Origin: Microbacterium horticulturae
GTDB taxonomy: Bacteria > Actinomycetota > Actinomycetes > Actinomycetales > Microbacteriaceae
Length of the DNA: 64,000 nt
Direction: 5' to 3'
Assembly: GCF_029094505.1 (NCBI RefSeq)
Contig: NZ_CP119108.1
Coordinates: forward strand, 1,426,001-1,490,000
In this document: in pieces, positions 17,378 to 32,790 of the stretch
Layout of the letters: every line of letters begins with the position of its first letter
Position numbering within the stretch: position 1 is the stretch's first letter
Program-made: the position numbers and the translations under genes
Notes under the pieces: model-generated
The model's input: the letters and a program-made list of their open reading frames with translations, nothing else
Told to the model about the DNA's origin: nothing
Databases searched by the model: none

Positions 17378-18750
17378 TGCAGGACTTCCGACTTCCCGAC
17401 CTCGGCGAGGGGCTTCCCGAGGCCGAGCTCGTGCAATGGCTCGTCGCCGAGGGCGACACCGTCAGCCTGAACCAGAACATCGCCGAGGTGGAGACGGCCA
17501 AGGCCGTCGTCGAGCTGCCCTCGCCCTATGCCGGCACAGTGCAGAGGCTGCATCACGCCGCCGGCGACACGATCGACGTCGGCGACGTCATCGTGACCTT
17601 CGCACTGGAGGGGGAGACGGTGGATGCTGCTCCCGCCGCCCCCGCAGAGGCCGGCAAGGGGGAGGCTGAGGCCGAGCCCGAAGAGGAGAAGGCCACGCCG
17701 AACCTCGTGGGGTACGGGGCCGCTCCGCGCAAGAGCGCGCGGCCGCAGCGGCGTGCGCGTGCTGCGCGCGCGGGTGCTTCGGCATCGGCCGACACCGCGG
17801 TGCTCGAGGCTGCGCCGCACGATGCGATCGTCGAGCAGCCCATAGAGCAACCGGTCGAGCGGCCCCGCTCCACCCCGCCGGTGCGCAAGCTCGCCAAGGA
17901 CTTGGGGATCGACCTCGCGCTCGTGGAGGCGACCGGCGAGAACGGCCTGATCACGCGGGGCGATGTCGAGGCGTACGCCGGCCACACCGGCATGGCGGAC
18001 GCGCAGGCGGCGGCCGCGGCATCCACCACTCCCGCGCCGACGAGCGACGAGCGTGTCACCCGCCGGCCGATTCGCGGGGTGCGCAAGGCGACGGCCGAGG
18101 CCATGGTGCGCAGCGCGTTCACGGCGCCGCATGTGACGACCTTCCAGACCGTCGACGTGACCGCGACGATGGAGCTCGTCGCATCGCTGAGGGCCGATCG
18201 ATCGCTGGAGGGCCACCGCATCGGCGTGATGGCGGTCGCGGCCAAGGCCGTGTGTCTGGCGCTCGGCCGCAACCCGAGTCTCAATGCGAAGTGGGATGAC
18301 GCGGCCGGCGAGATCGTCGAGCACCACTACGTCAACCTCGGTGTGGCGGCGGCGACCGAGCGGGGGCTCATCGTGCCGGTGGTCCCCGATGCAGACGCCA
18401 TGACGCTCGTCGAGCTGGCCGACGCGATCGGTGAGCTCGCGGCCACCGCGCGGTCGGGCAAGACGCCACCGGCGGCCATGACCGGGGGCACGTTCTCGAT
18501 CACGAACTTCGGCGTCTTCGGCGTCGAAGCCGGCACGCCGATCCTCAACCCGGGGGAGGCCGGCATCTTGGGGCTCGGCACCGTGGCCAAGCGGCCCTGG
18601 GAGCACCAGGGCGAGATCGCGCTGCGCGACGTCATGACGCTGAGCCTGTCGTTCGACCACCGGATCGTCGACGGTGCCGAGGGGTCGCGGTTCCTGGTCG
18701 ACGTCGCGAGCGTGCTCGAGCAGCCCGGGAGGGCGATGCTTCTGCGGTGA
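17377..18750 (+). CDS. bkdC: Branched-chain 2-oxoacid dehydrogenase E2 (dihydrolipoyl acyltransferase)
   Basis: The 457-residue core subunit has one lipoyl domain (1-75; lipoyl-Lys K42 in EVETAKAVVELP), an Ala/Pro/Glu-rich linker, a peripheral-subunit-binding domain (about 165-205: PPVRKLAKDLGIDLALV, then GLITRGDVEAYAG) and a catalytic domain ending in SFDHRIVDGAEGSRF with the HxxxDG active site. It passes the acyl group to CoA. ATG 17377 follows GGAGGTGG and overlaps the E1 beta stop; earlier in-frame sequence is shadow. No E3 gene follows, so lipoamide dehydrogenase must be shared with other complexes elsewhere. Confidence 0.93.
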   Translation: MQDFRLPDLGEGLPEAELVQWLVAEGDTVSLNQNIAEVETAKAVVELPSPYAGTVQRLHHAAGDTIDVGDVIVTFALEGETVDAAPAAPAEAGKGEAEAEPEEEKATPNLVGYGAAPRKSARPQRRARAARAGASASADTAVLEAAPHDAIVEQPIEQPVERPRSTPPVRKLAKDLGIDLALVEATGENGLITRGDVEAYAGHTGMADAQAAAAASTTPAPTSDERVTRRPIRGVRKATAEAMVRSAFTAPHVTTFQTVDVTATMELVASLRADRSLEGHRIGVMAVAAKAVCLALGRNPSLNAKWDDAAGEIVEHHYVNLGVAAATERGLIVPVVPDADAMTLVELADAIGELAATARSGKTPPAAMTGGTFSITNFGVFGVEAGTPILNPGEAGILGLGTVAKRPWEHQGEIALRDVMTLSLSFDHRIVDGAEGSRFLVDVASVLEQPGRAMLLR

Positions 18751-18792: not shown

Positions 18793-18853
18793 CGCGAGAG
18801 CATGCCTGTGCACGCCGTTCCGCCGGCGGAGCGTGCACAGGCGTGATCTCGCG
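18793..18853. repeat. Intergenic long-hairpin repeat, copy 1
   Basis: Two 23-nt arms (18793-18815 and 18831-18853) are complementary at 21 positions around a 15-nt loop. The mismatches are at arm positions 8 and 11. A second copy at 32624-32684 has near-identical arms (CGCGAGA, CA, then CTTGTGCACGC or CCTGTGCACGC) and mismatches at the same two positions. Both copies are intergenic, after the 3' end of a plus-strand gene. No T-tract follows, so a simple terminator is unlikely. Confidence 0.75.
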
Positions 18854-18892
18854 TGGGACGCGGGCGTAGGGTCGAGCCCAGCGGGGTGAGCC

Positions 18893-19159
18893 ATGTCGAC
18901 GAGGATGCTGCGCGCGGTGGTCGGTACCGCGCTCGCGGTTTCGGCATGCTCGCTCTCGGCGTGTGCGGTGCCCGCCGCCGAGCCGCAGGGCACGCCGTCT
19001 GGGGCGACGTCATCATGGCGTCCGACCGCGCTGCCGATCACATGTGGCAGCGGGTTCGGAGCGGCGTCCGCCGACTCGGGGACCGATGCCGATCGTTCGT
19101 GCGCTGAGGGGAGCGGGTCGCTCTCACAGACTCCGGATGATCGCACGTACGTCGGGTGA
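18893..19159 (+). CDS. Possible small lipoprotein
   Basis: An 88-residue reading frame with a plausible lipoprotein signal: Arg at 4 and 7, a hydrophobic stretch (VVGTALAVSACSLS) and lipobox LSAC with Cys at about 24. The mature part is short, Ser/Ala/Asp-rich and has two further cysteines (ITCGSG, RSCAEG) that could form a disulfide. A TAGGGT box (18867-18872) lies about 20 bp upstream, and GCGGGGTGAG precedes the ATG. I recognise no family. It lies in the 484-bp gap between bkdC and the TetR gene; the alternative is non-coding DNA. Confidence 0.45.
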   Translation: MSTRMLRAVVGTALAVSACSLSACAVPAAEPQGTPSGATSSWRPTALPITCGSGFGAASADSGTDADRSCAEGSGSLSQTPDDRTYVG

Positions 19160-19234
19160 TTCTGCGGGAATCGTCCGACGTGCGTCGTCTTCTCCGAAGT
19201 CTGTGTGGCGGTAGCGCGCCGCCGCCTCGGGGCC

Positions 19235-19825
19235 TCACGCCCGCAGAGCAGCACCCGCGAGCTGCTCGAGTGTCGCCCGCACCTGGCTCTCGCCGGGGGC
19301 GGCGCGCAGCCCGCGCACGCTGTGCGGCGTCGAGTTGATGAGCCCGAACACGGCATGCGCGCGCACGCGCAGATCGGCATCGGAGCGGGAGGGGTGGATG
19401 CCGCGCAGCACCCCCACCCACACCTCGACGTATTCGCGCTGCAGTCGTCGCACCCGATGCCGGTCGGTCTCGGCGAGCGAAGCGAGGTCGCGGTCCTGCA
19501 CGCGGATGACGTCGGCGTCATCGAGGGCGAACGCCACATGGAACCGGATGAGGTCATCAAGCGCGCTCGCGGGGTCGGGCGCGGCATCCACCACTCCCAC
19601 TCCACCGTCGCGCAGTCGCACGCTCACCTCCACGAGGATCGCGCCCAGCAGCGCCTGCTTGCTCGCGAAGTGTCGGTAGACCGCGGGGCCGCTCACGCCG
19701 CATGCGGCGCCGATGTCTTCGAGCGTCACCGACGCGAAGCCGCGCTCGGCGAACAGCCGTGACGCCTCGCGCAGCAGCGCCGACCGGCGGTCGGACTTCG
19801 CGCGTTCGCGCTGCGTGATTGCCAT
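19235..19825 (-). CDS. TetR-family repressor of the acyl-CoA carboxylase operon
   Basis: The 196-residue regulator has a TetR HTH at about 10-60 (ALLREASRLFAERGFASVTLEDIGAACG, then VSGPAVYRHFASKQALL) and a TetR_C_33-like ligand domain. It is divergent from the MCC/leucine genes, matching the place of Rv2506 near accD1-accA1 in M. tuberculosis. Two tandem GTTA-N8-TAAC palindromes lie in the 61-bp gap between the two starts. Autoregulation plus repression of the operon, relieved by an acyl-CoA, is the natural prediction. The ligand is not shown by sequence. Confidence 0.92.
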   Translation of the reverse strand: MAITQRERAKSDRRSALLREASRLFAERGFASVTLEDIGAACGVSGPAVYRHFASKQALLGAILVEVSVRLRDGGVGVVDAAPDPASALDDLIRFHVAFALDDADVIRVQDRDLASLAETDRHRVRRLQREYVEVWVGVLRGIHPSRSDADLRVRAHAVFGLINSTPHSVRGLRAAPGESQVRATLEQLAGAALRA

Positions 19826-19829
19826 CTGA

Positions 19830-19845
19830 GTTAATCCTCGCTAAC
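19830..19845. promoter_or_regulatory. TetR operator 1, GTTA-N8-TAAC
   Basis: A 16-bp palindrome starting 5 bp upstream of the TetR start codon. Together with operator 2, centred 26 bp away, it also forms an imperfect direct repeat, AGTTAAT(N6)CTAAC. Confidence 0.7.
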
Positions 19846-19855
19846 ATCGAGTTCA

Positions 19856-19871
19856 GTTAATGAAGACTAAC
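19856..19871. promoter_or_regulatory. TetR operator 2, GTTA-N8-TAAC
   Basis: This second 16-bp palindrome has the same half-sites and spacing as operator 1. It covers an in-frame ATG at 19860, an argument that translation of accD starts at the next ATG (19887), which has GGAG 5 nt upstream. Confidence 0.7.
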
Positions 19872-19886
19872 ACCGTCGGAGCAGAC

Positions 19887-21449
19887 ATGACCGAACCCGC
19901 CACCCAGCGTGACCTCGCCGCCGAACTGCGCGAGCGCGTCGCCGTCGCGGCCGAAGGCGGGTCCGCGGCATCCCGCGACCGCCACGTCACGCGCGGCAAG
20001 CTGCTGCCGCGCGATCGCGTGCGGCGCCTGCTCGACGAAGGCAGCCCATTCCTCGAGGTCGCTCCGCTCGCTGCCGACGGCCTGTACGACGGGCAGGCTC
20101 CGGCGGCGGGCGTCATCGCCGGCATCGGGCTCGTGCACGGCCGACACGTCATGGTGGTGTGCAACGACGCCACCGTCAAGGGCGGCACGTACTATCCGAT
20201 GACCGTCAAGAAGCATCTGCGCGCGCAGGAGATGGCCCTCGAGAACCGGCTGCCCTGCGTCTACCTCGTCGACTCGGGGGGCGCGTTCCTGCCGATGCAG
20301 GACGAGGTCTTTCCCGACCGCGACCACTTCGGGCGCATCTTCTTCAATCAGGCGCGGCTGTCGGCCGAGCGCATCCCGCAGATCGCGGCAGTGCTCGGTT
20401 CGTGCACGGCCGGCGGTGCGTACGTGCCCGCGATGAGTGACGAGACGGTGATCGTCCGCAACCAGGGCACGATCTTCCTGGGCGGGCCGCCGCTCGTGAA
20501 GGCCGCGATCGGCGAGGTCGTCACCGCCGAAGAGCTCGGCGGGGGAGAGCTGCACGCCCGCCACTCGGGAGTCGTCGACCACCTCGCCGACGACGACGAG
20601 CACGCGCTCGAGATCGTGCGAGACATCGTCGCAACCCTGCCGCCGCCCGCCGAGCCGGCGTGGCTGGTCTCCGAGACCGTCCCGGCGAAGGGCACCGCCG
20701 ACGAGCTCTACGACGTCGTGCCCGTCGACGTGAATCAGCCGTACGACGTGCGCGAGGTGATCAGCCGCCTCGTCGACGGCGGCGCGCTGCACGAGTTCAA
20801 GAAGGAATACGGCACGACCCTGGTGACCGGCTTCGCGCACATCCACGGGCACCCCGTGGGCATCGTCGCCAACAACGGCGTGCTGTTCAGCGAGTCGGCG
20901 CTGAAGGGCGCCCACTTCATCGAGCTGTCCGATCAGCGCGGCATCCCGCTGCTGTTCCTGCAGAACATCTCCGGCTTCATGGTGGGGCGGGATGCCGAAG
21001 CCGGCGGCATCGCGAAGGACGGGGCCAAGATGGTCACGGCCGTCGCGACGACGCGGGTGCCCAAGCTCACGGTCGTGATCGGCGGCTCGTTCGGCGCCGG
21101 CAACTACTCGATGTGCGGGCGGGCATATTCGCCCCGCTTCTTGTGGACGTGGCCCGCCAGCCGCATCTCGGTGATGGGCGGCGCCCAGGCCGCATCCGTG
21201 CTCTCCACCGTCAAGCGCGATCAGCTCGAGGCGCGCGGCGACCAGTGGCAGGCCGACGAGCAGGCGGCGTTCGAGGCGCCGATCCGCGCGCAGTACGAAG
21301 AGCAGGGCAGCCCGTACTACGCGACCGCGCGGCTGTGGGACGACGGCATCGTCGACCCCGCCGACACCCGTGACCTGCTGGGGCTCGCGCTCGATGTCGT
21401 TGCGCGCACGCCCCTGCCCGAACCGCGCTTCGGCGTCTTCCGGATGTGA
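19887..21449 (+). CDS. accD1: Acyl-CoA carboxylase beta subunit, methylcrotonoyl-CoA type
   Basis: The 520-residue carboxyltransferase has the N-terminal crotonase-like half with [25 protein letters not shown]... and [11 protein letters not shown], and the C-terminal half with [25 protein letters not shown] and [16 protein letters not shown]. The biotin and acyl-CoA oxyanion holes are intact. The motif set is that of methylcrotonoyl-CoA carboxylase beta (AccD1) rather than acetyl/propionyl-CoA carboxylase. It transfers CO2 from biotin to 3-methylcrotonyl-CoA in leucine breakdown. ATG 19887 is preferred over 19860, which lies inside an operator. The stop overlaps the next start (GTGA). Confidence 0.92.
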
Positions 21450-23356
21450 GCAGCACCATGTACTTCGACACCGTTCTGGTGGCCAACCGCGGCGAGATCG
21501 CCCGCCGCGTCATTCGCACGCTGCGCCTGCTCGGCATCCGGTCGGTCGCCGTCTACAGCGACGCCGACGCGTCGGCGCCGCATGTGGCCGAGGCCGATGA
21601 TGCCGTGCGGATCGGGCCGGCTGCGGCATCCCACTCGTATCTCGACATCGACGCGGTCATCGGTGCAGCGCAGGCGAGCGGCGCGCAGGCGATCCACCCC
21701 GGGTACGGCTTCCTCTCCGAGAATCCGGCGCTCGGCCGCGCCTGCGCCGAGGCCGGCATCGTCTTCATCGGGCCGGGTGCCCAGGCGCTCGAGGTCATGG
21801 CCGACAAGATCCGCGCTCGCGACCATGTCGCCGCCTCCGGTGTGCCCATCGTGCCCGGCTTCAGCGCCGCCGGCATGACCGACGACGAGATCGTGGATGC
21901 CGCGAAGGCCGCCGGCTTTCCGCTGCTGATCAAGCCGTCGGCCGGCGGCGGCGGCAAGGGCATGCAGGAGGTGCATGGTCCCGATGAGGTCCGGGATGCC
22001 GTGGCCACCGCCCGCCGCGTGGCCACGGCCGCCTTCGGCGACGACACGCTGCTGTTCGAGCGTCTCATCCAGCGTCCGCGGCACATCGAGGTGCAGGTGC
22101 TCGGCGACACACGCGGCACCGTCATCCACCTTGGTGAACGCGAATGCACGCTTCAGCGCCGCCACCAGAAGGTCATCGAAGAGGCTCCGTCGCCGCTGAT
22201 CGACGCCGGCACCCGGGCACGGCTGGGCGAAGCGGCCTGTGCGGCCGCGGCATCCGTCGCCTACACGGGCGCCGGAACCGTGGAGTTCATCGTGTCGGCG
22301 GACCGGCCCGACGAGTTCTTCTTCATGGAGATGAACACGCGCCTCCAGGTCGAGCACCCGGTGACCGAGCTGGTGACCGGCGTCGATCTCGTCGAGCAGC
22401 AGCTGCGCATCGCCGCGGGCGAGGCGCTCGACATCGCTGATGTGACATTCGACGGGCACGCGATCGAGGCGCGGGTGTATGCCGAGAGCCCCGCGCGCGG
22501 CTTCTTGCCGGCGACCGGCGATGTGCTGTTGTGGCAGCCGGCCGAGGGAGTGCGGACGGATGCCGCTGTCGAGACCGGCAGCGTGGTCACCGCCGACTAC
22601 GACCCGATGATCGCGAAGGTCATAGCCCACGGTGCCGACCGTGCGCAGGCGCTCGAGCGGTTGGATGCCGCGCTCGCCGGCACCGTGCTGTTCGGTGTGG
22701 AGAGCAACATCGACTTTCTGCGCACGCTGCTGACTGATCCCGTCGTGCAGGCCGGCGACATGGACACCGGGCTCATCGACCGGATGCCGCCGTTCGAAGA
22801 CCCGGCACCGAACGAGGCAGCGCTCGCCGCTGCGGCTGCTGCGGTGCCGCTCGCGGAGGAGCGCGGACACGCGACGCCGCTGTGGCTGGCGGGAACGGGG
22901 TGGCGTGCAAGCGCCGCGCCGGTGCCGGGGCGGGTGTGGTTCGAAACGAGCGACGGGACGGTGTCGGTCGCCCCGCGAGCGCAGCGAGACGAAGGTCCGG
23001 TGACCGCCGTCGGCTCGGAGGGAACCGTCTGGGTCCACGCCGACGGCGTGACCAGCGCCCTCACGCCGCTCACGCGACGCCAGGCGATGGAGCACCGCCT
23101 CGCACAGCGGGAACGCGCCGAGGGCGCCTCCGACCCCGAGCTGCGTGCGCCGATGCCCGGCGCCGTGGTCGCAGTGCACGCTGAAGAAGGCGCCCGCGTG
23201 ACTGCGGGAGAGAAGATCGTCTCCATCGAGGCGATGAAGATGGAACACCCGGTGACGGCGCCGCATGACGGCATCCTCACCCTCCTGGTCGCGAGCGGCG
23301 ACCAGGTGCGTCGCGATCAGATCATCGCGCGCGTCGACCCTGCCGAAGGCGAGTGA
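21446..23356 (+). CDS. accA1: Acyl-CoA carboxylase alpha subunit (biotin carboxylase + BCCP), MCC type
   Basis: The 636-residue protein has a biotin carboxylase module (about 1-450: [25 protein letters not shown], the ATP-grasp glycine loop [27 protein letters not shown]). A variable middle region (about 450-570) follows, then a biotinyl domain with the biotin Lys in [11 protein letters not shown] near residue 600. It carboxylates its own biotin for the beta subunit. The GTG overlaps the accD stop; an ATG 12 bp later ([12 protein letters not shown]) is an equally good start. A 19-bp match to an interspersed repeat (22975-22993) lies inside the variable region without breaking the frame. Confidence 0.92.
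22975..22993 (+). repeat. Interspersed-repeat-like segment inside accA1
   Basis: GCGAGCGCAGCGAGACGAA resembles the second half of the GGTCGTTGAGCGAAGCGAGACGAAAC-type repeat family known from Microbacterium intergenic regions. Here it codes within the poorly conserved linker before the biotinyl domain. It may be an old insertion tolerated in frame, or chance. Confidence 0.4.
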
Positions 23357-24525
23357 AAGACAGCATGGACACCTACAGCACTTATGACGTCAGCGACGAC
23401 GAGCGCGAGCTCGCCGGACTCGTGCGCGGCTTCGCCGACGAGGTCATCGCGCCGATCGCCTATGAGGCGAACCGCACCCACACCCTGCCGCTCGACGTCG
23501 TCGCGCAGATGGGGGAGATGGGCCTGTTCGGCCTGCCGTTCCCCGAAGAGTACGGCGGGCAGGGCGGCGACTACTTCGCGCTGAGCCTGGCGATCGAGGC
23601 CATCGGCCGCGTCGACCAGTCGCTGGCGATCACGCTCGAAGCCGGGGTGAGCCTGGGCGCGATGCCGATCTTCCGCTTCGGGAACGACGAGCAGAAGCGC
23701 GAGCTGCTGCCGGATCTGCTCGCCGGCCGGGCGCTCGGGGGGTTCGGTCTGACCGAACCGGATGCCGGATCCGATGCCGGCGCCACGCGCACCACCGCGC
23801 GACTCGAGGGCGGCGAGTGGGTCATCAACGGTGCGAAGCAGTTCATCACCAACTCGGGCACCGACATCACCCGCTTCGTCACCGTGACCGCGGTAACCGG
23901 GGAGAAGGACGGCCGCAAGGAGATCTCGACGATCATCGTTCCGAACGGCACACCGGGGTTCACCGTCGAGCCGGCTTACGACAAGGTGGGCTGGCACGCG
24001 TCTGACACGCACCCGCTCACCTTCGCCGACGCCCGGGTGCCCGAGGCGAATCTGCTCGGCGAGCGGGGCCGTGGGTTCGCGGCCTTCCTGCACATCCTCG
24101 ACGAGGGGCGTATCGCGATCGCCGCTCTCGCGACGGGCGCCGCCGAAGGGTGTGTGGACGCCGCCGTCGACTACGCGCACTCGCGGACGGTCTTCGGGCA
24201 GCCGCTGGCCACCAAGCAGACGATGCAGTTCAAGATCGCGCGCATGCAGGCCCGGGTGCACACGGCGCGGCTCGCCTGGCACCACGCGGCACGCCTGCGC
24301 GACGCCGGCAAGCCGTTCAAGACCGAGGCCGCCATCGCCAAGCTTGTGGCGGGGGATGCCGCCATGGACAACGCCCGCGACGCCACCCAGGTGTTCGGCG
24401 GCAACGGGTTCATGAACGAGTACCCCGTGGCGCGCCATTACCGGGACTCGAAGATCCTCGAGGTCGGCGAGGGCACCACCGAGGTGCAGCTGCTCGTGAT
24501 CGCTCGGGCGCTGGGCCTGGTGTGA
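23353..24525 (+). CDS. Acyl-CoA dehydrogenase, FadE19-like (isovaleryl-CoA oxidation)
   Basis: The 390-residue flavoprotein has the ACAD fold: [13 protein letters not shown] and [14 protein letters not shown] (FAD/substrate contacts), then [34 protein letters not shown] and [17 protein letters not shown]. The catalytic Glu is in the ordinary ACAD position (the E of EGT). Classical isovaleryl-CoA dehydrogenases keep the base on helix G and have a small residue here. Operon position makes isovaleryl-CoA to 3-methylcrotonyl-CoA the likely step, but a broader short branched-chain specificity is possible. GTG 23353 overlaps the accA1 stop (GTGA); ATG 23365 is an alternative. Confidence 0.88.
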
Positions 24526-24535
24526 AGGGGCTAGC

Positions 24536-25021
24536 GTGAACGGCATGACCGAGATCGTCCAGCGCGGGCTGTACTACGAGGAGTGCGAGGTGGGCGCGCG
24601 GTATCTCCACCGGCCCGGGCGTACCGTCACCGAGGCCGACAACATGCTGTTCTCGGCGCTGACGATGAACACGCAGGCGTTGCACCTCGACGCGGCATAC
24701 TCGGCCACGCAGCCGTTCGGCAAGCCGCTCATGAACTCGATGTGGACGCTGTCAACGCTGGTGGGGATGTCGGTGGCCCAGATCACGCAGGGCACCCTGG
24801 TCGCCCAGCTCGGCCTGTCGGACATCTCGTTTCTGCGCCCCGTCTTCGCCGGCGACACGCTCTACGGCGACACCGAGATAGTTTCCAAGCGGCTCTCGAC
24901 CTCGCGCCCCGGGCAGGGCCTCGTGACGATGACGCACACCGGCCGCAACCAAGACGACGAGGTCGTCGCCACCGTCACGCGCATCGCGCTGATGTGGTGT
25001 CTGCCGAAGGAGGATGCATGA
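24536..25021 (+). CDS. MaoC-family R-specific enoyl-CoA hydratase
   Basis: The 161-residue hot-dog fold protein of the MaoC type has YYEECEVGARYLHRPGRTVTEADN (dehydratase segment, D/H chemistry around HLD), FGKPLMNSMWTLSTLVGM and the C-terminal strand GDTLYGDTEIVSKR. In M. tuberculosis the equivalent gene (Rv2499c) lies in the same place between fadE19 and citE. The predicted step is hydration of 3-methylglutaconyl-CoA to (R)-3-hydroxy-3-methylglutaryl-CoA. This MaoC gene takes the place of a crotonase-type hydratase. The GTG at 24536 follows AAGGGG; an ATG 9 bp later is an alternative. The stop overlaps the lyase start (ATGA). Confidence 0.87.
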   Translation: MNGMTEIVQRGLYYEECEVGARYLHRPGRTVTEADNMLFSALTMNTQALHLDAAYSATQPFGKPLMNSMWTLSTLVGMSVAQITQGTLVAQLGLSDISFLRPVFAGDTLYGDTEIVSKRLSTSRPGQGLVTMTHTGRNQDDEVVATVTRIALMWCLPKEDA

Positions 25022-25821
25022 GCTTTCAGATGGGGCCCGCCCTGCTGTTCTGCCCTGCCGACCGGCCCGAGCGGTTCGCCAAGGCTGCCGCACGGGCCGA
25101 CGCGGTCATCCTCGACCTCGAAGACGCTGTCGCCGCAGCCGACAAGCCCACCGCGCGCGGCAACCTCATCGAGAGCGACCTGGACCCGGCGTGCACCATC
25201 GTGCGTATCAATCCGCTCGACTCCGAGCATGCGGCATCCGATCTGTCCACTCTGTCGCAGACCGACTACCGCACCGTGATGGTCGCCAAGAGTGAGTCGG
25301 CGAAGACACTCGGCCGATTCGACCCGCGCTTCCGGCTGATCGCGCTGTGCGAGACAGCGCGCGGGGTGGTCAACGCCGAGAAGATCGCCTCGCTCGAGAA
25401 CGTCACGGCGTTGATGTGGGGCGCCGAAGACCTCGTCGCGTCGCTGGGTGGCATATCCAGCCGCAAGACGAACGGGCGCTACCGGGACGTCGCGCGTCAG
25501 GCGCGATCCCGCGTGCTGCTGGCCGCGGGCGCTCGTGGCAAAGCCGCGATCGACGCCGTGCATCTGGACATCGCCGATGCCAAGGGGCAGTCACGGGAGG
25601 CGATGGATGCCGCGGCCTCCGGCTTCGCGGCCACCGCCTGCATCCATCCTTCGCAGGTCGAGCTCGTGCGGGCCGCGTACCGCCCGGACGTGAAGACCGT
25701 GGCCTGGGCCCGGGCGGTGCTGGCCGCGGCCGCCGGGCAACGCGGTGTGTTCTCGTTCGAGGGACGCATGGTCGACGAGCCTGTGCTCGCGCACGCGCGC
25801 TCGGTGCTCGCGCGGGCGTGA
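25018..25821 (+). CDS. CitE-like beta-hydroxyacyl-CoA lyase
   Basis: The 267-residue TIM-barrel protein of the HpcH/HpaI-CitE family has ALLFCPADRPERF at the start, the metal-site DLEDAV, VRINPLDSEH, CETARGVVNAEKIA, MWGAEDLVASLG and CIHPSQVELV. There are no citF or citD partners, so it is not citrate lyase. The M. tuberculosis orthologue by position (Rv2498c) is a stereospecific (R)-beta-hydroxyacyl-CoA lyase in leucine and itaconate catabolism. Here it would split (R)-HMG-CoA to acetyl-CoA and acetoacetate, ending the pathway. ATG 25018 has GAAGGAGG upstream and overlaps the MaoC stop. It is the last gene of the operon. Confidence 0.88.
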   Translation: MSFQMGPALLFCPADRPERFAKAAARADAVILDLEDAVAAADKPTARGNLIESDLDPACTIVRINPLDSEHAASDLSTLSQTDYRTVMVAKSESAKTLGRFDPRFRLIALCETARGVVNAEKIASLENVTALMWGAEDLVASLGGISSRKTNGRYRDVARQARSRVLLAAGARGKAAIDAVHLDIADAKGQSREAMDAAASGFAATACIHPSQVELVRAAYRPDVKTVAWARAVLAAAAGQRGVFSFEGRMVDEPVLAHARSVLARA

Positions 25822-25830
25822 GCGTCAGCC

Positions 25831-25872
25831 GGTCGTTGAGCGAAGCGCCCGCAGGACGCTGAGTCGAAACGC
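25831..25872. repeat. Microbacterium-type interspersed repeat in the intergenic gap
   Basis: GGTCGTTGAGCGAAGCG (25831-25847) followed by GAGTCGAAACG (25861-25871) matches the ends of a short repeat widespread between genes in Microbacterium and relatives; the middle is diverged. It lies in the 55-bp gap between the convergent lyase and histidine phosphatase genes, where it may serve as a bidirectional terminator. Confidence 0.6.
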
Positions 25873-25876
25873 CAGC

Positions 25877-26476
25877 TCAGTGCGCGACGGCGTCGACGAG
25901 GCGCAGGCGCTCGCGCTCGATGAGGATCGTGTAGCCGCCGCCGTTGGGCAGCCGGGTGGCGGGGTCAGGCAGGTCGCCGTGGCTGATGTGGCGCACGAGC
26001 TCGCGGATGAGCGCGCCATGCGAGACGACGATGACCGACGCGCCGCCCGGCGCGGTCAGTGCACGGACATCGCGGGCTACCTTGCGCACGCCGCGCACCG
26101 CGCGCTTGCGCACGAGCGGCCACGGCTCGGCGCCGGGCACGTCGGATGCATGGCGGGTGCCCCAGCGTGCCTCGATGTCGTCGCCGGTCATCCCCTCTGC
26201 CTCGCCGTACGCGCGCTCGCGCAGTTCGGGGTAGAGGTGCGGCGTGGGCAGCCCGAGCTCGTCGGCGATGATCTCGGCCGTCTCGCGGGCGCGCGACAGG
26301 TCGCTGGCCGCGACGGCGACCGGCAGGGACGGATCCATGCGGTCGAGTAGGATCGCCGCGGTGTCGCGTGCCTGCTGACGGCCGGTCTCGTTCAGCGCGA
26401 TGTCGCTCGTGCCCTGGATGCGGCCGACGCGATTCCAATCCGTCTCGCCGTGGCGGATGAGGGTCAGAGTCGTCAC
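25877..26476 (-). CDS. Histidine phosphatase family protein
   Basis: The 199-residue phosphoglycerate-mutase-like protein has LTLIRHGETDWNRVGRIQGTSD (RHG with catalytic His about 9), the acid in ELRERAYGEAEG (about 85-95) and the second His in IVVSHGALIREL (about 150-160). The family includes broad-specificity phosphatases such as GpgP/CobC relatives; the substrate is unknown. The start overlaps the sirtuin stop (26473-26476), so both are translated from one message. Confidence 0.88.
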   Translation of the reverse strand: MTTLTLIRHGETDWNRVGRIQGTSDIALNETGRQQARDTAAILLDRMDPSLPVAVAASDLSRARETAEIIADELGLPTPHLYPELRERAYGEAEGMTGDDIEARWGTRHASDVPGAEPWPLVRKRAVRGVRKVARDVRALTAPGGASVIVVSHGALIRELVRHISHGDLPDPATRLPNGGGYTILIERERLRLVDAVAH

Positions 26477-27279
26477 GGCTCAAGCCTATCGGCGAGACCT
26501 GTGAGCACCTCGCTCGTTCCGGCGTCGAGCTTCACCGTCGCCCGCGCATCGGCACGTGTCTGCCCGCGATTGACGATCACGATCGGGATGCCGCGGCGCT
26601 GTGCGCGCTGGATGAACCGCATCCCCGAGTTGACCACCAGCGACGATCCCGCCACGAGCAGCGCATCGGCGGCGGTCAGCAGCTGCTCGGCACCGGCGAA
26701 CTGCCCGAGGGGAATCGTCTCGCCGAAGAAGACGACTTCGGGTTTCAGCATCCCTCCACACACACTGCACGCCGGCACGATGAATCCGTCGACGGAGTCG
26801 GGGCGCACATCGCCGTCCGGCAGCAGCACAGCGTCTTCGTTCGTGACCAGCCACGGGTTGTCGGCCTCGATGCGTACCGCCAGGTCGCGGCGATCGAACA
26901 CCTGGCCGCAGTGCAGACAGAGCACCCGACGGAGCGTGCCGTGCAGCTCGACGACGCGCTCGGACCCCGCCTGAAGGTGGAGTCCATCGACGTTCTGGGT
27001 CATGACACCGTTCACGACGCCGCGGTGCTCGAGATCGGCGAGGGCCTGGTGGCCGGCATTGGGACGTGCGGCGGCGAACCGCTTCCACCCGAGGTGGCTG
27101 CCGATCCAGTAGCGTCGGCGCGCGGCATCCGTCGCCAAGAACTGCTGCACGGTCATGGGCTGCCGCACCGGAGCGTGCTCGCCGCGATAGTCGGGGATTC
27201 CCGAGTCGGTGGAGACACCGGCGCCGGTGAGAACGGCGATGCGCCGCCCGGTCAGAGCGGCGACGGCGTCTTCGAGCAC
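26473..27279 (-). CDS. Sir2-family NAD-dependent protein deacylase
   Basis: The 268-residue sirtuin has GAGVSTDSGIPDYRG (NAD site), TQNVDGLHLQAG, the catalytic His in ELHGTLRRV, a zinc ribbon with CLHC (about 125) and CSVC (about 170), KPEVVFFGE and GSSLVVNSG. It removes acyl groups from lysines using NAD+. In actinobacteria sirtuins reactivate acyl-CoA synthetases, which fits a genome rich in acyl-CoA enzymes, but no target is adjacent. The GTG start has TAACCT 6 nt upstream, so the message is probably leaderless. Confidence 0.92.
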   Translation of the reverse strand: MLEDAVAALTGRRIAVLTGAGVSTDSGIPDYRGEHAPVRQPMTVQQFLATDAARRRYWIGSHLGWKRFAAARPNAGHQALADLEHRGVVNGVMTQNVDGLHLQAGSERVVELHGTLRRVLCLHCGQVFDRRDLAVRIEADNPWLVTNEDAVLLPDGDVRPDSVDGFIVPACSVCGGMLKPEVVFFGETIPLGQFAGAEQLLTAADALLVAGSSLVVNSGMRFIQRAQRRGIPIVIVNRGQTRADARATVKLDAGTSEVLTGLADRLEP

Positions 27280-27285
27280 CTGCCC

Positions 27286-27291
27286 AGGTTA
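27286..27291 (-). promoter_or_regulatory. -10 box TAACCT, leaderless type (sirtuin)
   Basis: TAACCT on the minus strand with a 6-nt gap to the GTG of the sirtuin gene. It would drive the sirtuin/histidine phosphatase pair. Confidence 0.5.
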
Positions 27292-27330
27292 CGCGTTCGG
27301 CCGCGGTGCGGGCATGCTGGAGGGGTGAGC

Positions 27331-28128
27331 GTGATCCGCATCGACGACCCCCTCGAACCACGACTCGCGGATTACCGCGATCTCACCGACGTGAGGCTGC
27401 GGCGCATGCTGGAACCGGCAGGTGGCCTGTACATGGCGGAGTCGGCCAAGGTGCTCGCGCGGGCGCTGGAAGCGGGGCACCAGCCGCGCTCGCTGCTCGT
27501 GCAGGAGAAGTGGCTCGACGACGCGCTTATGCTGCTGGGCGAGCGCGGCGATGTGCCGGTGTACGTCGTACCGGCGGAGGTGGCCGAGAAGCTCACCGGG
27601 TACGCCGTGCACCGCGGGCTGCTGGCCGCCATGCATCGCCCCGAGCTGCCCTCGATCGCGGAGGTGCTGACCGGCGCACGTCGTGTGCTTGTGCTCGATG
27701 AGATCGTGGATCACACGAACGTCGGGGCGATGTTCCGGGGTGCCGCGGGCCTGGGCGCCGACGCCGTGCTCGTGGGTGCGCGCTGCGCCGACCCCCTGTA
27801 CCGGCGCAGCGTGCGTGTGAGCATGGGCACGGTCTTCCAGGTGCCGTGGACACGGCTGCCCGAGTGGCCACAGGCGGGCGACGCGTTGCGCGCCGAGGGC
27901 TTGCATCTGGCGGCGCTCGCGCTCGCCGACGACGCCGTCTCACTCGACGACTTCGCCGCCGATCCGCCCGAGCGGGTGGCCCTCATGCTCGGTGCCGAGG
28001 GGGACGGCCTCGGACGCAAGGCGCTCGCCGCGGCAGACACCATCGTCACGATCCCGATGGCCGGGGGAGTGGACTCGCTGAACGTGGCTGCGGCCGCCGC
28101 CGTGGCGATGTGGGCGCTGCGGGTCTAG
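27331..28128 (+). CDS. TrmH/SpoU-family RNA 2'-O-methyltransferase
   Basis: The 265-residue protein has an N-terminal substrate-binding domain (about 15-95) and a SPOUT catalytic domain with motif 1 LDEIVDHTNVGAMFRGAAGLGA, motif 2 LMLGAEGDGLG and motif 3 TIPMAGGVDSLNVAAAAAVAMW, which form the trefoil-knot SAM site. It methylates a ribose in rRNA or tRNA; the target base cannot be told. GTG 27331 is chosen because GGAGGGG lies 5-6 nt upstream; a GTG at 27325 overlaps that site. The last 4 bp overlap the stop of the convergent SGNH gene. Confidence 0.9.
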   Translation: MIRIDDPLEPRLADYRDLTDVRLRRMLEPAGGLYMAESAKVLARALEAGHQPRSLLVQEKWLDDALMLLGERGDVPVYVVPAEVAEKLTGYAVHRGLLAAMHRPELPSIAEVLTGARRVLVLDEIVDHTNVGAMFRGAAGLGADAVLVGARCADPLYRRSVRVSMGTVFQVPWTRLPEWPQAGDALRAEGLHLAALALADDAVSLDDFAADPPERVALMLGAEGDGLGRKALAAADTIVTIPMAGGVDSLNVAAAAAVAMWALRV

Positions 28129-28976
28129 GCCTTCTCGCCGCGGCGGGCCGCGGCATCCTTCCCCGGCGCCAGCGTCGTGACCGGCAGCGGTTCTGGGCGC
28201 TTCGCGGTGACGTTGTCACCCGACGACTGGTGGCGCAGGCGTCGCAGCACCCACGGCATCAGGTGCGTGCGTGCCCAGACGAGGTCTTCGCTGCGCGCTG
28301 CGCGCCAGGTGCGCGGCGGCAGCGGGTCGGGCTCCATCGGGGTGAGGTCATTGGGCACGTTCAGGGCGCGCAGCACCATGCGCGCTATCTCGTGGTGCCC
28401 GAGCGCGTTGTAGTGCAGCCGGTCGTCGGTGAAGAACCGCGGGTCCTGCACGGTCTTCAGCGCCCACTGATCGGCCACTATGCAGTCGTACTCGTCAGCG
28501 ACCGCGCGCACGTTCTCGTTGTAGATCGCCACCTTGCCGCGGATCGCGCGGAACACCGGGGTGAACTCGGTGTCGATGCCGGTGAAGACCACGAGCGTCG
28601 CGCCGGTGCTCGACAGGCGTGCGACCGCATCGCGGAACAGAGTCGCGATCTCGTCGGGGTCGGTGCCGGGGCGGATCACGTCGTTGCCGCCCGCGCAGAG
28701 CGTGACCAGGTCGGGTTTGAGCGCCAGGGCCGGCTCGATCTGATCGGCGATCACCTGACGGATGAGCTTGCCCCGCACGGCGAGGTTCGCATAGGCGAAG
28801 TCGTCGACCTGGCTGGAGAGCACCTCGGCGACCCGATCGGCCCAGCCGCGGAAGACTCCCGGCTCATCGGAGGGGTCGCCCACGCCCTCGGTGAACGAGT
28901 CGCCGAGGGCGACGAAGCGTCGCCAGGGGTGCGGCTCGGCGTTCTCGACGAACGGGCTGCGGTGATCCTCAGACAT
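28125..28976 (-). CDS. SGNH/GDSL hydrolase
   Basis: The 283-residue protein has SGNH blocks I (RFVALGDSFTEGVGD, Ser nucleophile about 27), II (Gly in YANLAVRGK), III (AGGNDVIRPG) and V (DRLHYNALGHHE with Asp-x-x-His). It has no signal peptide, so it is likely a cytoplasmic esterase or lipase. A basic tail of about 45 residues is actinobacteria-typical. ATG 28976 has an excellent GGAGGAGG site 6 nt upstream. It is divergent from the helicase gene. Confidence 0.92.
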   Translation of the reverse strand: MSEDHRSPFVENAEPHPWRRFVALGDSFTEGVGDPSDEPGVFRGWADRVAEVLSSQVDDFAYANLAVRGKLIRQVIADQIEPALALKPDLVTLCAGGNDVIRPGTDPDEIATLFRDAVARLSSTGATLVVFTGIDTEFTPVFRAIRGKVAIYNENVRAVADEYDCIVADQWALKTVQDPRFFTDDRLHYNALGHHEIARMVLRALNVPNDLTPMEPDPLPPRTWRAARSEDLVWARTHLMPWVLRRLRHQSSGDNVTAKRPEPLPVTTLAPGKDAAARRGEKA

Positions 28977-29085
28977 CGTGATCCTCCTCCGGACAGACAC
29001 TCAGACTAATCGTCGGGCGATGTCTGCCGCTTCGCCTAAGGTGGAATGTCGTCGCGCCGTCCGGCGGCGCAGAAGGGAGTTCGGG

Positions 29086-30897
29086 TTGGAGGAGCACGCC
29101 TCACTGGGAAGCTTCGCCGCCGAACATCTCTCGCCCACCTACCCGCAGCGGGCCCCCTGGGGCACCGCCCAGCGCCTGCGCGCGTGGCAGGCCGAGGCGC
29201 TCGACCTGTACTTCGGGCTCGACGGCCCCGATGGCGTCGGACAGGGCCCGCGCGACTTCCTCGCGGCGGCCACGCCCGGCGCCGGCAAGACGACGTTCGC
29301 GCTGCGTCTGGGCAGCGAGCTGCTGCGCCGTCGCGTGGTCGACCGCATCATCGTGGTGGCACCCACCGAGCACCTCAAGACGCAGTGGGCGGATGCCGCG
29401 GCCCGCGTCGGGATCCGGCTCGACCCCGCGTTCTCCAACAGGCATGCGTCGCCGGCGCGCGAATACCATGGCGTCGCCGTGACCTACGCGCAGGTCGCGG
29501 TCAAGTCGTCGGTGCACGAGCGGCTCGTACTCGAGCGGCGAAGCCTCGTGATCCTCGACGAGGTGCATCACGGTGGCGACGCCCTCAGCTGGGGCGACGC
29601 GCTGCGCGACGCCTATCGGCGCGCCACCCGCCGCCTGCTGCTGAGCGGCACGCCGTTCCGCAGCGACACCGCGCCCATCCCGTTCGTCGAGTACCACCCC
29701 GATGTGCACGGCATCCGCGTCTCGCGCACCGACTACAGCTACGGCTACCGGCGGGCGCTCGAAGACGGTGTCGTGCGCCCCGTGATCTTCATGGTGTACG
29801 CCGGCAACATGCGCTGGCGCACCAAGACCGGCGACGAGATGGAAGCCCAGCTCGGGCAGGACAACACCAAGGACATCACCGCGCAGGCCTGGCGCACTGC
29901 GCTCGATCCAGAGGGCGACTGGATCCCCGCGGTGCTGCGCAGCGCCGACCGGCGTCTGACCGAAGTACGCGAGCAGGTGCCGGATGCCGGGGGCCTGGTG
30001 ATCGCGACGGATCAGACGGCCGCGCGCGCCTACGCCGACATCCTTCGGCAGATCACGGGCGAACAGGTCACCGTCGTGCTCTCGGACGAGGCCGAGGCCT
30101 CGGGCCGCATCGAGACCTTCTCGAAGGGCACGAGCCGCTGGATGGTCGCGGTGCGCATGGTGTCGGAGGGCGTCGACGTGCCGCGTCTGTCGGTGGGGGT
30201 GTATGCGACGAGCGCCTCCACGCCGCTGTTCTTCGCCCAGGCCATCGGCCGCTTCGTGCGCGCCCGGCGACGCGGTGAGACGGCGAGCGTGTTCCTGCCG
30301 AACGTGCCGCAGCTGCTGGCCCTCGCAGGCGAGCTCGAGCGCCAGCGCGACCATGCGCTCGACCGCGAGGGCGGAGACGACGAGTGGGCGCCTGAAGAAG
30401 ACGCGATGGATGCCGCGCAGCGCGACGAGAAGGCCTCGGACTCGCTGATGGAGGAGTTCAGCTACCAGGCACTGGGCTCGCACGCGAACTTCGACCGCGT
30501 GCTGTTCGACGGCAAGGAGTTCGGGCAGCTCGCCACCCCTGGCACGCCCGAGGAAGAGGAGTTCCTCGGGCTGCCGGGCCTGCTCGAGCCCGAGCACGTG
30601 CACGAGCTGCTTATGCAACGGCAGGCGCGGCAGAGCCGGCACCGCGTCGCCCGAGAGACGCACGAAGGAGCAACGGGCGACGAGCCCGAGCCGCCGCAGG
30701 CGCTGCACCGTACCCTCAAAGAGCAGCGCCAGCTGCTGAACAGCCTGGTCGGGCTGTACGCACGGCAGTCGGGCGAACCGCACGGCGTGGTGCACGCTGA
30801 GCTGCGGCGCACGTGCGGCGGCCCGGCGGTGGGTCAGGCCACGGTGGCGCAGCTGCAGAAGCGCATCGAGGTGCTGCGCCGGAGGGTGCACTCGTAG
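29086..30897 (+). CDS. DEAD/DEAH-box helicase, superfamily 2
   Basis: The 603-residue SF2 helicase has motif I ATPGAGKTTFALRLGSELL, motif II ILDEVHHGGD, motif III LSGTPFRSD, motif V-like VRMVSEGVDVPRLSVGVYAT and motif VI FAQAIGRFVRARR. The C-terminal region (about 430-603) is acidic, then Arg/Gln-rich. It is related to type III restriction/RadD-like helicases, but no nuclease or methylase gene is nearby, so a repair role is more likely than restriction. The TTG start (29086-29088) is chosen because AAGGGAG lies 6 nt upstream; the extra 36 residues of the upstream reading are low-complexity shadow. Confidence 0.88.
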   Translation: MEEHASLGSFAAEHLSPTYPQRAPWGTAQRLRAWQAEALDLYFGLDGPDGVGQGPRDFLAAATPGAGKTTFALRLGSELLRRRVVDRIIVVAPTEHLKTQWADAAARVGIRLDPAFSNRHASPAREYHGVAVTYAQVAVKSSVHERLVLERRSLVILDEVHHGGDALSWGDALRDAYRRATRRLLLSGTPFRSDTAPIPFVEYHPDVHGIRVSRTDYSYGYRRALEDGVVRPVIFMVYAGNMRWRTKTGDEMEAQLGQDNTKDITAQAWRTALDPEGDWIPAVLRSADRRLTEVREQVPDAGGLVIATDQTAARAYADILRQITGEQVTVVLSDEAEASGRIETFSKGTSRWMVAVRMVSEGVDVPRLSVGVYATSASTPLFFAQAIGRFVRARRRGETASVFLPNVPQLLALAGELERQRDHALDREGGDDEWAPEEDAMDAAQRDEKASDSLMEEFSYQALGSHANFDRVLFDGKEFGQLATPGTPEEEEFLGLPGLLEPEHVHELLMQRQARQSRHRVARETHEGATGDEPEPPQALHRTLKEQRQLLNSLVGLYARQSGEPHGVVHAELRRTCGGPAVGQATVAQLQKRIEVLRRRVHS

Positions 30898-30900
30898 ACT
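30895..30900 (+). promoter_or_regulatory. -10 box TAGACT, leaderless type (SRPBCC gene)
   Basis: TAGACT begins on the TAG stop codon of the helicase gene and is 6 nt from the GTG at 30907, a compact end-to-start junction. Confidence 0.55.
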
Positions 30901-30906
30901 CGCCGC

Positions 30907-31368
30907 GTGGCAGCGAGATACTCGTTCGAGACACGGTGGCGCCTGCCTGCCCCGCGCGAGCGATGCTGGCAGGAATTGGAACGGATGCTGCGCGATGGCG
31001 CCGTCGCGTGGTGGCCGGGTGTGCGGGTCGCGCCGGCTCCCGTTGACGCCGCGGTGGGCGCGCAGTTTCTCCTGCTCGTGCGCAGTCCCCTGGGCTATCG
31101 GCTGCGGGTGACGATGCGCATCACGCAGAGCGAGCCGGCGCGGCTCATCGCGGCCGATGCCGTGGGCGACCTGCGCGGACACGGGGCGATCACCGTGCGC
31201 GCGGTCGGGGGCGGCAGCATTCTCACCTTCGTGTGGGAGGTCGAGACCCAGCGGCTCTGGATGAATCTGGCAGCGCCGCTGATGCACGGGGCGTTCGCCC
31301 GTGCGCACGACCGGGTGATGGCGCGGGGCGAGCGCGGTCTGCGCGCGACCCTTGCCGGGCGCGGTTAG
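30907..31368 (+). CDS. SRPBCC-family (polyketide cyclase/START-like) protein
   Basis: The 153-residue single-domain protein has the helix-grip pattern: YSFETRWRLPAPRERCWQEL at the start (strand then helix), central strands ending LTFVWEVET, and the long C-terminal helix MHGAFARAHDRVMARGERGLRATL. Members bind hydrophobic ligands; no ligand can be named. The WWPGV-x-V segment is typical of the actinobacterial polyketide cyclase/dehydrase annotation. It starts 10 bp after the helicase gene with its own leaderless -10. Confidence 0.8.
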   Translation: MAARYSFETRWRLPAPRERCWQELERMLRDGAVAWWPGVRVAPAPVDAAVGAQFLLLVRSPLGYRLRVTMRITQSEPARLIAADAVGDLRGHGAITVRAVGGGSILTFVWEVETQRLWMNLAAPLMHGAFARAHDRVMARGERGLRATLAGRG

Positions 31369-31480
31369 CGCGTCCGGTGCGGGTTCGGGCGTCGACCCGG
31401 TGCGGTTCGGGGCCCCGAAATGCTGGCAATCACGCGGTTCGGGCGGGTGCGGCATCCCGCGCCCGATACCCTCGATCAAC

Positions 31481-32560
31481 GTGAGTGAACCGAGCGCCCG
31501 TGATCGCCGCCGCTGGGCGCAGTACCTCGTGAACGAACGGGCCGAAGCCCGCGTGTACCGCGAACTCGCCGGGCGGCGGAGCGGACAGGAGCGCGAGATC
31601 CTGCTCCAGCTCGCCGAGGCGGAGGGGCGCCACGAAGCACACTGGCTGACCCTGCTGGGCGGCGAGCCGGCCTCGCTGCCGCGTGCCTCCAAGCGCACCC
31701 GGATGCTGGGCTGGATGGCGCGGCACTTCGGCCCGATCTTCGTTCTCGCCCTGGCGCAGAACGCCGAAGGGCGCTCGCCGTACGACGACGATCCGCACGC
31801 GACGGCGGCGATGGCGGCCGACGAGAAGGTGCATCAGGAGGTCGTGCGGGGGCTCGCCGCTCGCGGCCGTCGGCAGTTGTCGGGCGGCTTCCGCGCGGCG
31901 GTGTTCGGCGCCAATGACGGTCTGGTCTCCAACCTCGCGCTGGTGATGGGCATCGGAGCGGCGGGAGCCTCCGCGCAGTTCGTGCTGTTCAGCGGCATTG
32001 CCGGGCTGTTGGCCGGTGCGCTGTCGATGGGCGCGGGGGAGTACGTGTCGGTCCGCTCGCAGCGCGAGATGCTCGAGGCCACGCAACCGGGCGAGTTCGC
32101 CGACGGCATCCTTCCCGATCTCGATCTCGATGCCAACGAGCTCGCGCTCGTCTACCGGACCCGCGGGATGTCGGCCGATGCCGCCCTTGCGCGCGCAGAG
32201 CAGACGCTCGCTCGCGCGCGACGCCCCGACGTTGTCGCGGCCCACACCGGTCCGGTAGGCGTGCCCGACGATCGCGATGTCGTCGGCAGCGCCTGGCGGG
32301 CGGCGTTCTTCAGCTTCCTCTGCTTCGCCTCGGGGGCGATCATCCCGGTGCTGCCGTGGATCTTCGGCATGGCCGGGGTTCCCGCCGTCGTGCTGGCCCT
32401 CGTCCTGGTCGGGCTGGCGCTTCTGGGCACCGGCGCGATCGTCGGCCTGCTCTCTGGTGCTGCTCCGCTGCGACGCGCGCTGCGCCAGCTGCTCATCGGC
32501 TACGGCGCCGCGGCGGTGACCTACCTGCTCGGCCTCCTGTTCGGGGTGAGCCTGGGCTGA
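31481..32560 (+). CDS. VIT1/CCC1-family metal transporter with N-terminal ferritin-like domain
   Basis: The 359-residue protein fuses two modules. Residues about 1-130 are a ferritin/rubrerythrin-like helical domain with Glu/His ligands (YRELAGRRSGQEREILLQLAEAEGRHEAHW; ADEKVHQEVV). Residues about 135-355 are the VIT1/CCC1 membrane domain with five helices (FRAAVFGANDGLVSNLALVMG; GALSMGAGEYVSVRSQREM; two pairs near the end). VIT1 proteins export or store Fe2+/Mn2+; the ferritin-like part would bind iron on the cytoplasmic side. The GTG at 31481 begins at NVSEPSARDRRRW after a TACCCT box; earlier sequence in frame overlaps other DNA. The 3' end contains a 10-bp tandem repeat. Confidence 0.9.
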   Translation: MSEPSARDRRRWAQYLVNERAEARVYRELAGRRSGQEREILLQLAEAEGRHEAHWLTLLGGEPASLPRASKRTRMLGWMARHFGPIFVLALAQNAEGRSPYDDDPHATAAMAADEKVHQEVVRGLAARGRRQLSGGFRAAVFGANDGLVSNLALVMGIGAAGASAQFVLFSGIAGLLAGALSMGAGEYVSVRSQREMLEATQPGEFADGILPDLDLDANELALVYRTRGMSADAALARAEQTLARARRPDVVAAHTGPVGVPDDRDVVGSAWRAAFFSFLCFASGAIIPVLPWIFGMAGVPAVVLALVLVGLALLGTGAIVGLLSGAAPLRRALRQLLIGYGAAAVTYLLGLLFGVSLG

Positions 32561-32580
32561 GCCTGGCTGAACCTGGCTGA
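32550..32580 (+). repeat. 10-bp tandem repeat placing stop codons in all three frames
   Basis: Three units of about 10 bp (CCTGGGCTGA, GCCTGGCTGA, ACCTGGCTGA) run through the end of the VIT1 gene. Each contributes a TGA (32558, 32568, 32578), and because the unit is not a multiple of 3 the stops fall in different frames. Confidence 0.55.
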
Positions 32581-32623
32581 GCGTGCGTCGGGACGAGCGC
32601 GCCGAGCACACGCCTTTTCCCTG

Positions 32624-32684
32624 CGCGAGAACATCCTTGTGCACGCTCTCCGGCGCAAAAAGCGTGCACAAGGGTGATCTCGCG
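32624..32684. repeat. Intergenic long-hairpin repeat, copy 2
   Basis: Arms 32624-32647 and 32661-32684 (24 nt) pair at 22 positions around a 13-nt loop. The mismatches fall at arm positions 8 and 11, exactly as in copy 1 at 18793-18853. Both right arms read GTGATCTCGCG at their outer end. It lies between the VIT1 and MFS genes, 54 bp before the MFS operator pair. Confidence 0.75.
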
Positions 32685-32737: not shown

Positions 32738-32754
32738 CTTCAGCTATACTGAAG
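32738..32754. promoter_or_regulatory. Operator 1, CTTCAG-N5-CTGAAG, covering a TATACT -10
   Basis: A perfect 6-5-6 palindrome. The MFS gene's best -10 hexamer, TATACT (32745-32750), lies inside it, so a bound repressor would exclude RNA polymerase. Confidence 0.7.
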
Positions 32755-32758
32755 CAGG

Positions 32759-32775: not shown

Positions 32776-32790
32776 GTAAGAGGAGGCGGC

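Follow-up and report, generated by a model that had tools for sequence, protein, structure and literature searches.

The window, i.e., the whole stretch of DNA analysed here, comprises 64,000 nucleotides of the genome of Microbacterium horticulturae (contig NZ_CP119108.1; this source genome, 3.646 Mb in a single contig, is designated G000) and corresponds to G000 1426001-1490000. It contains two copies of a hairpin-forming palindrome, termed class A in the following, further copies of which occur elsewhere in the genome, among other places on both sides of a gene for a predicted nuclease. The two copies and the genes in their flanking context are:

18793..18853 (G000 1444793-1444853), no strand assigned: class-A palindrome copy, arms of 23 bp, loop of 15 nt
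32624..32684 (G000 1458624-1458684), no strand assigned: class-A palindrome copy, arms of 23 bp, loop of 15 nt
17254..18750, plus strand: 2-oxoacid dehydrogenase acyltransferase gene (PF00198, PF00364, PF02817); the start is that of the longest open reading frame (ORF), the start given by the codon-usage predictor being 17377
31352..32560, plus strand: VIT-family gene (PF01988); the codon-usage predictor gives 31529 as start instead
32791..34404, plus strand: major facilitator superfamily (MFS) transporter gene (PF07690)

The first copy is situated 42 nt 3' of the acyltransferase stop codon, the second 63 nt past the stop codon of the VIT-family gene and 106 nt ahead of the MFS transporter gene. 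Their coordinates, at 61 bp each, agree exactly with a preliminary description of this DNA, as do the shared arms, with both hairpins ending CGCGAGA / GTGATCTCGCG and possessing a core of (C/T)TGTGCACGC, and the restriction of unpaired arm positions to 8 and 11 in both copies; at position 11, a T faces a G, which is a wobble in RNA. Concerning the loops, said to be 15 and 13 nt long, the first length stands, whereas the second loop likewise measures 15 nt and is reduced to 13 nt only if an extra T-A pair is counted. Scanning the window with the covariance model of the family (see below) recovered the two copies at E <= 3e-16 on either strand, the next match following at E 0.076, and an Rfam search of the window yielded two tRNAs and nothing else.

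Across G000, the pattern CGCGAGAN{28,58}TCTCGCG matches 27 sites, compared with 2 for the reversed control, such that the hairpins of the window are not a product of chance. Twelve of these sites are 61 bp long (class A), eight are 44 bp long (seven of them forming a second class), and seven have other lengths. A covariance model derived from the 12 class-A sites gives 56 matches over both strands, corresponding to 28 distinct genomic copies, so that the supposed two-copy family is considerably larger than first described; the match spans 61 bp in 26 of the 28 copies and 62 bp in a tandem pair (2554200/2554333). The class-A build consists of a 23-bp stem and a 15-nt loop. The 61-base segments of the 28 G000 copies and of one M. 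elymi copy (n=29) can be aligned without gaps at 61 columns, and 90.1% of the arm cells in these 29 sequences are paired. The arms covary according to a covariation score of 0.141 (0.101 in shuffled alignments, with 0 of 500 shuffles as high), although measures based on pair counts and pair types exhibit no excess over the shuffles (149/500 and 311/500). The two mismatches, formerly taken to be conserved, are minority variants: position 8 is unpaired in 12 of the 29 sequences, and T.G is found at position 11 in 4. Identity among the 28 G000 copies amounts to 87% in the outer arms, 94% in the core, 57% in the middle and 39% in the loops (25% when shuffled). Random loops are ruled out by the latter value (0.386 compared with 0.253 in shuffled loops), and the regional identities point to loops that are related but worn, with length and arms being kept. 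A shuffling of half-elements was also considered; however, the 22 half-loop pairs agreeing at >=9/10, compared with a mean of 7.9 and a maximum of 16 in column shuffles, are too weak a signal to rely on.

All 28 copies are located between genes as called by a simple codon-usage predictor. Together with the covarying arms, this bears out the earlier proposal of a maintained, dispersed intergenic family resembling repetitive extragenic palindromic (REP) sequences or miniature inverted-repeat transposable elements (MITEs), as opposed to chance terminators. The neighbouring genes are convergent at 14 copies, co-directional at 12 and divergent at 2, and 26 of the 28 are situated 3' of at least one gene; with each space counted once, 12 of 25 spaces are convergent, compared with 44 of 268 in a background formed by the window and 400 kb of M. 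elymi (Fisher p 0.0006). Such a distribution would also suit ordinary bidirectional terminators with a conserved stem, and another inverted repeat, of 35-73 bp, follows the acyltransferase gene in 7 of its 29 relatives. The constant length, the 15-nt loops and the lack of a T-run (on the outgoing strand, TTTT is absent from the 10 bases next to either end in all 28 copies), as well as the gene-specific words and the pairing with one nuclease family described below, nevertheless render this explanation very improbable. The 29 relatives of the acyltransferase locus are 75-81% identical across the gene preceding the first window copy; none possesses the word or the length of this copy at the same site, and their downstream DNA differs, such that there is no clean empty site for it. 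About 14 bases after an ortholog of the gene at window 17254-18750, genome G097 (locus L085) exhibits an inverted repeat of 42 bases whose core resembles CTCGTGCAC; it sits where G000 has the first window copy and is possibly a remnant or a palindrome with a different word.

Four class-A copies, starting at 1329420 and 1329537 on one side and at 1330632 and 1330917 on the other, bracket the following gene:

G000 1329673-1330617 (L059:7674-8618): class-A nuclease gene, encoding a protein of 314 aa

The whole unit of palindromes, gene and palindromes extends over G000 1329420-1330977, with DAHP synthase and PASTA kinase genes neighbouring the nuclease gene. Between the palindromes, this gene forms an ORF of its own and is not contained in a host gene as part of an intron or intein, and no AbiEii partner adjoins it among the neighbours tested at that locus. 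Its product is weakly similar to the Pfam families MTES_1575 (E 0.018) and DUF559 (E 0.028); with respect to the DUF559 cut-off of 20.6 bits, it stays below at 14.7 bits, whereas the relative at locus L157 and the class-B neighbour (see below) reach 24.6 and 27.7 bits. Searching eight Microbacterium genomes with the class-A protein by tblastn yielded 30 matches representing 27 genes, three matches being second pieces. Among 19 aligned members, MTES_1575 is found in 13 and DUF559 in 12 (E 0.01), the AbiEi model matches 14, on the N-terminal side in the two where its position was determined, and the residues S..E, D, E..G..H and D are conserved in all 19 proteins. Two solved structures gave weak profile matches, namely 3hrl, titled 'Endonuclease-Like Protein', at E 0.0019, and 3r3p, titled 'Mobile intron protein', at E 0.012. 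Judged by these similarities, an AbiEi-like domain and a Vsr-like nuclease domain are probably joined in relatives of the class-A protein. The profile built from the 19 aligned members finds relatives at E <= 1e-15 in 44 of 149 Actinomycetota genomes, with up to 13 matches in one genome; searches gave no match in phages and one weak match in plasmids, and no relative of a six-protein subset was found in viral contigs.

Vsr-like nucleases (EDxHD) are a known homing family, and the solo palindromes could accordingly be regarded as homing targets, the nuclease gene and its flanks being copied into cut palindromes by repair. The weak match to 3r3p is consistent with this, as is the bracketing of nuclease genes by a word that is also found solo; however, the flanks are whole palindromes, not half sites, and in G000 there are 24 solo palindromes as opposed to one gene copy of that dialect (i.e., of that palindrome word), and we regard homing as decidedly unlikely.

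Bracketing by matching hairpins also occurs at related genes. In a first test, hairpins on both sides shared a word of at least 8 bases at 15 of 27 loci, compared with 0 of 300 random M. elymi places. A strict test (500-base flanks, hairpins on both sides, shared word of at least 10 bases) was passed by 19 of 28 loci of the genus, which are not independent rows, as they include at least three orthologous pairs, compared with 39 of 756 mismatched pairs, which matched because some dialects recur, and with 0 of 119 ordinary genes of 700-1200 bases (Fisher p 2e-17). The 28 loci, from the eight Microbacterium genomes, are the 27 genes with L230 replacing L170, plus L229. Outside the 19, the genes at L154 (with another cut-off) and L153 (by eye) are bracketed as well, their hairpins overlapping the gene ends used in the strict test, whereas L159 possesses tandem palindromes on one side only; the remaining misses in the genus are L167, L173, L175, L177, L178 and L229. 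In other Actinomycetota, 20 of 66 loci passed, compared with 21 of 4290 mismatched pairs; these loci are not a random set, comprising 28 of 30 returned ones (without the duplicate L181 and the contig-end locus L193) and 38 chosen by score, the ordinary-gene control covers the Microbacterium genomes and not these, and a few of the 20 matches (e.g., L204 and L218) may be other local repeats. In total, 39 loci passed. We regard the pairing of the nuclease gene with cognate palindromes as strongly supported. Some nuclease relatives whose reading frames look broken are still situated between matching hairpins (G000 276571-277565; M. elymi 2050223-2051129, 1263127-1263933 and 759726-760608); the frame breaks in M. 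elymi, whose genome is 68% complete as one contig, may be sequencing errors.

AbiEi proteins autoregulate by binding inverted repeats, and palindromes are often found directly upstream of the nuclease genes. With the AbiEi model matching most of the aligned relatives, the palindromes might thus be operators by which an AbiEi-like winged helix regulates its own gene, the scattered copies constituting a regulon or decoys, with no mobility involved. This is unlikely, considering that palindromes also lie downstream of nuclease genes, that the scattered copies prefer convergent spaces, with only 2 of 28 in divergent ones, and that the nuclease core residues are conserved.

Concerning the relation between word and protein, similarity of the words is correlated with similarity of the proteins over 38 loci (Spearman 0.191, 0 of 2000 permutations as high), these being the 41 loci with a shared word of at least 8 bases except for three with protein pieces of less than 220 residues. 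Removal of three orthologs left rho at 0.187 (35 loci, 0 of 1000 permutations as high), and the non-genus genomes alone gave 0.373 (21 loci, 0 of 1000). Furthermore, scattered hairpins in the genomes G012, G018, G032, G245, G135 and G035, found by the covariance model R1 or the core pattern without reference to any nuclease, carry the word that brackets or adjoins a resident nuclease gene; among the hairpin-bearing genomes, the search for a nuclease covered these six, G000 and M. elymi. At a locus shared by G000 (2519261) and M. elymi (759726, frame-broken), the related nucleases are identical at 134 of 181 aligned residues in the best piece and the downstream DNA at 86%; the words differ between the genomes and agree on both sides within each, which speaks for concerted change.

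The second class of G000 (class B) consists of a 44-bp core in a palindrome of about 80 bp, with 7 copies by exact pattern. One copy is located on one side of an MTES_1575/DUF559 gene (~1832389-1833201) and a degenerate copy, recognised by eye, on the other. Class A and class B each being found beside a nuclease gene, several dialects exist in one genome. A third pair of inverted repeats in G000, 71-72 bp long with CGCGAGAG ends (L034 and L033, G000 1117596-1117666 and 3533835-3533906), has partly common interiors, unlike the 61-bp class; one of the two lies inside a predicted ORF.

Among 59 genomes of the genus, model R1 gives strong matches in G000 only; in nine others the matches are weak (3e-7 at best) and in part perhaps due to chance. 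Most of the weak matches are built in the same way, measuring 54-62 bp with long arms and in many cases a core resembling TTGTGCAC, and have different outer words. The core pattern TTGTGCAC + complement occurs in 10 of 247 genus genomes, compared with 3 for the reversed control. Scanning one genome per species in a set of 84,980 species, which may omit the source species itself, for the dialect pattern found M. elymi and one unrelated record. In M. elymi, one of the sites found by the model is at a locus shared with G000, where G000 keeps a half element. At M. elymi ~769000 (L132), a 44-bp hairpin of the form GCCGAGTGCACA-N20-TGTGCACTCGGC occupies the space matching G000 2554200; its spacing is that of the second G000 class, and its word is different.

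Differences in copy number exist between the close relatives G032 and G245, which are mostly 88-97% identical where compared (78-90% at one locus). One dialect is present in at least 5 copies in G032 and at least 10 in G245, both being lower bounds from a single BLAST query, and the five copies of G032 all have counterparts in G245. One copy found only in G245 faces a G032 site without about 110 bp (the palindrome and about 50 bp), and another faces a matching G032 space that lacks the palindrome but has diverged, such that close relatives differ by the gain or loss of copies. Three solo copies with orthologs differ at 2, 3 and 8 of 61 bases, 0, 0 and 3 of the differences falling in the loop, and the two copies beside the nuclease gene by 18 and 6 bases. 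At L158 2567-2627 and L157 1321-1381 (G245/G032), the hairpin by the nuclease gene aligns better, by eye, if it is turned over while its flanks are left as they are, which may reflect an inversion of the palindrome.

We propose, with a probability of roughly 60%, that the hairpins of the window are solo palindromes of a two-part selfish element consisting of a nuclease gene and its cognate palindromes. The autonomous unit would have the structure of one or more palindromes, the nuclease gene, and again one or more palindromes, which in G000 would be 1329420-1330977. The word of the palindrome is probably read by the AbiEi-like (winged-helix) domain at the N-terminus, and nicking or cutting of the palindrome, either as duplex or as extruded hairpin, probably falls to the Vsr-like nuclease domain at the C-terminus; repair of the cut, by gene conversion or templated repair, would then copy, spread and homogenise the palindromes, and as a consequence of this homogenisation each nuclease would keep its own dialect. 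That the nuclease binds, cuts and spreads the palindromes is the most economical reading. More tentatively, at somewhat less than even odds, such elements might constitute a class of mobile elements in at least several Actinomycetota families, in which the palindromes are recognised, spread and homogenised by their own free-standing AbiEi-like/Vsr-like nuclease, the word co-evolves with the nuclease and one genome can harbour several mutually blind dialects; it would be a convergent counterpart, based on an unrelated enzyme, of the system of REPs and REP-associated tyrosine transposases (RAYTs).

Several observations weigh against the proposed two-part element. Binding, cleavage and the route of movement or spreading are steps that we infer. 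At E 0.01, neither Pfam nor PADLOC contains a model matched by the class-A protein itself, and the strict test failed at 9 of the 28 genus loci and 46 of the 66 others. Within the genus alone and without orthologs (14 loci), the correlation of word and protein fails (rho 0.051, 320 of 1000 permutations as high), which lowered our confidence; in the non-genus genomes, shared ancestry and base composition could contribute to it, and a correlation would also be expected if linked parts were merely co-inherited. M. elymi, although a close relative, possesses only 5 sites by the model. Direct repeats of at least 4 bases at the ends are absent in all 28 copies, and the sole clean presence/absence difference comprises 112 bp as opposed to 2 bp, and not 61 bp, which leaves the mobile unit undefined. 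Furthermore, several orthologous dispersed copies look vertically inherited.

The proposed element is similar to REP/RAYT systems (TnpA-REP, REPtrons, REPINs), in which short, dispersed intergenic palindromes with species-specific words are likewise found on both sides of a gene for a dedicated DNA-processing enzyme, and the arrangement of dispersed intergenic palindromes around an enzyme gene resembles REPtrons as presented in passages of PMC3733652. Despite this similarity, there are differences: a Y1/HUH transposase is replaced here by an AbiEi-like/Vsr-like nuclease, the hairpins measure about 61 bp with a 15-nt loop, and neither a GTAG nor a CGTC tag adjoins any of the 28 copies on either strand. 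The RAYT-type transposase anticipated in the preliminary description was not found, with PF01797 in 0 of 8 genomes (the control was positive in 5 of 14 known genomes). A reading of the palindromes as REPs mobilised by a Y1 (HUH) transposase is therefore largely refuted and retains hardly any probability; the cassette would work like REP/RAYT without being a member, because transposase and tag were both missing. PMC3733652 contains no word beginning with actinobacteri, mycobacteri or microbacteri.

Among other known systems, Vsr-like (EDxHD) homing endonucleases share a weakly similar nuclease domain (3r3p, see above) and a probably selfish nature, whereas here a free-standing gene lies between whole palindromes and an additional AbiEi-like N-terminal domain is present. 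AbiE type IV toxin-antitoxin systems share the AbiEi model, whereas in G000 an adjacent AbiEii is missing and the AbiEi-like part is fused to a nuclease domain. The MTES_1575 restriction endonuclease and DUF559 families correspond to the C-terminal domain, with matches in 13 and 12 of the 19 aligned proteins. MTES_1575 is described as a Vsr-fold restriction endonuclease domain of a large multidomain protein of Microbacterium testaceum, where it is, unlike here, joined with HEPN and transglutaminase domains; neither palindromes nor mobility are mentioned in the passages on MTES_1575 in that source (PMC3710099). MITEs are likewise small, multicopy, palindromic and intergenic; unlike them, the class-A copies exhibit no target duplication of at least 4 bases at their ends (which need not be the true ends of the mobile unit), and the enzyme is not a known transposase. 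No paper whose title or abstract opening describes a nuclease-palindrome pairing was found in a literature search that did not cover many subscription papers and preprints, and the cassette seems to represent a type of selfish element that is new to the literature. If so, many uncharacterised proteins of the DUF559/MTES_1575 type (up to 13 matches per genome) would obtain a genomic context and a testable substrate, the palindrome-plus-enzyme lifestyle of REP/RAYT would have arisen again with a Vsr-like nuclease, and the 39 natural dialect pairs would provide ready cognate and non-cognate substrates for studying the recognition of DNA words.

Directly upstream of the MFS transporter gene, the window additionally contains repeated operator-like motifs (TTCAG..ACTGAAG type) at 32740-32790.

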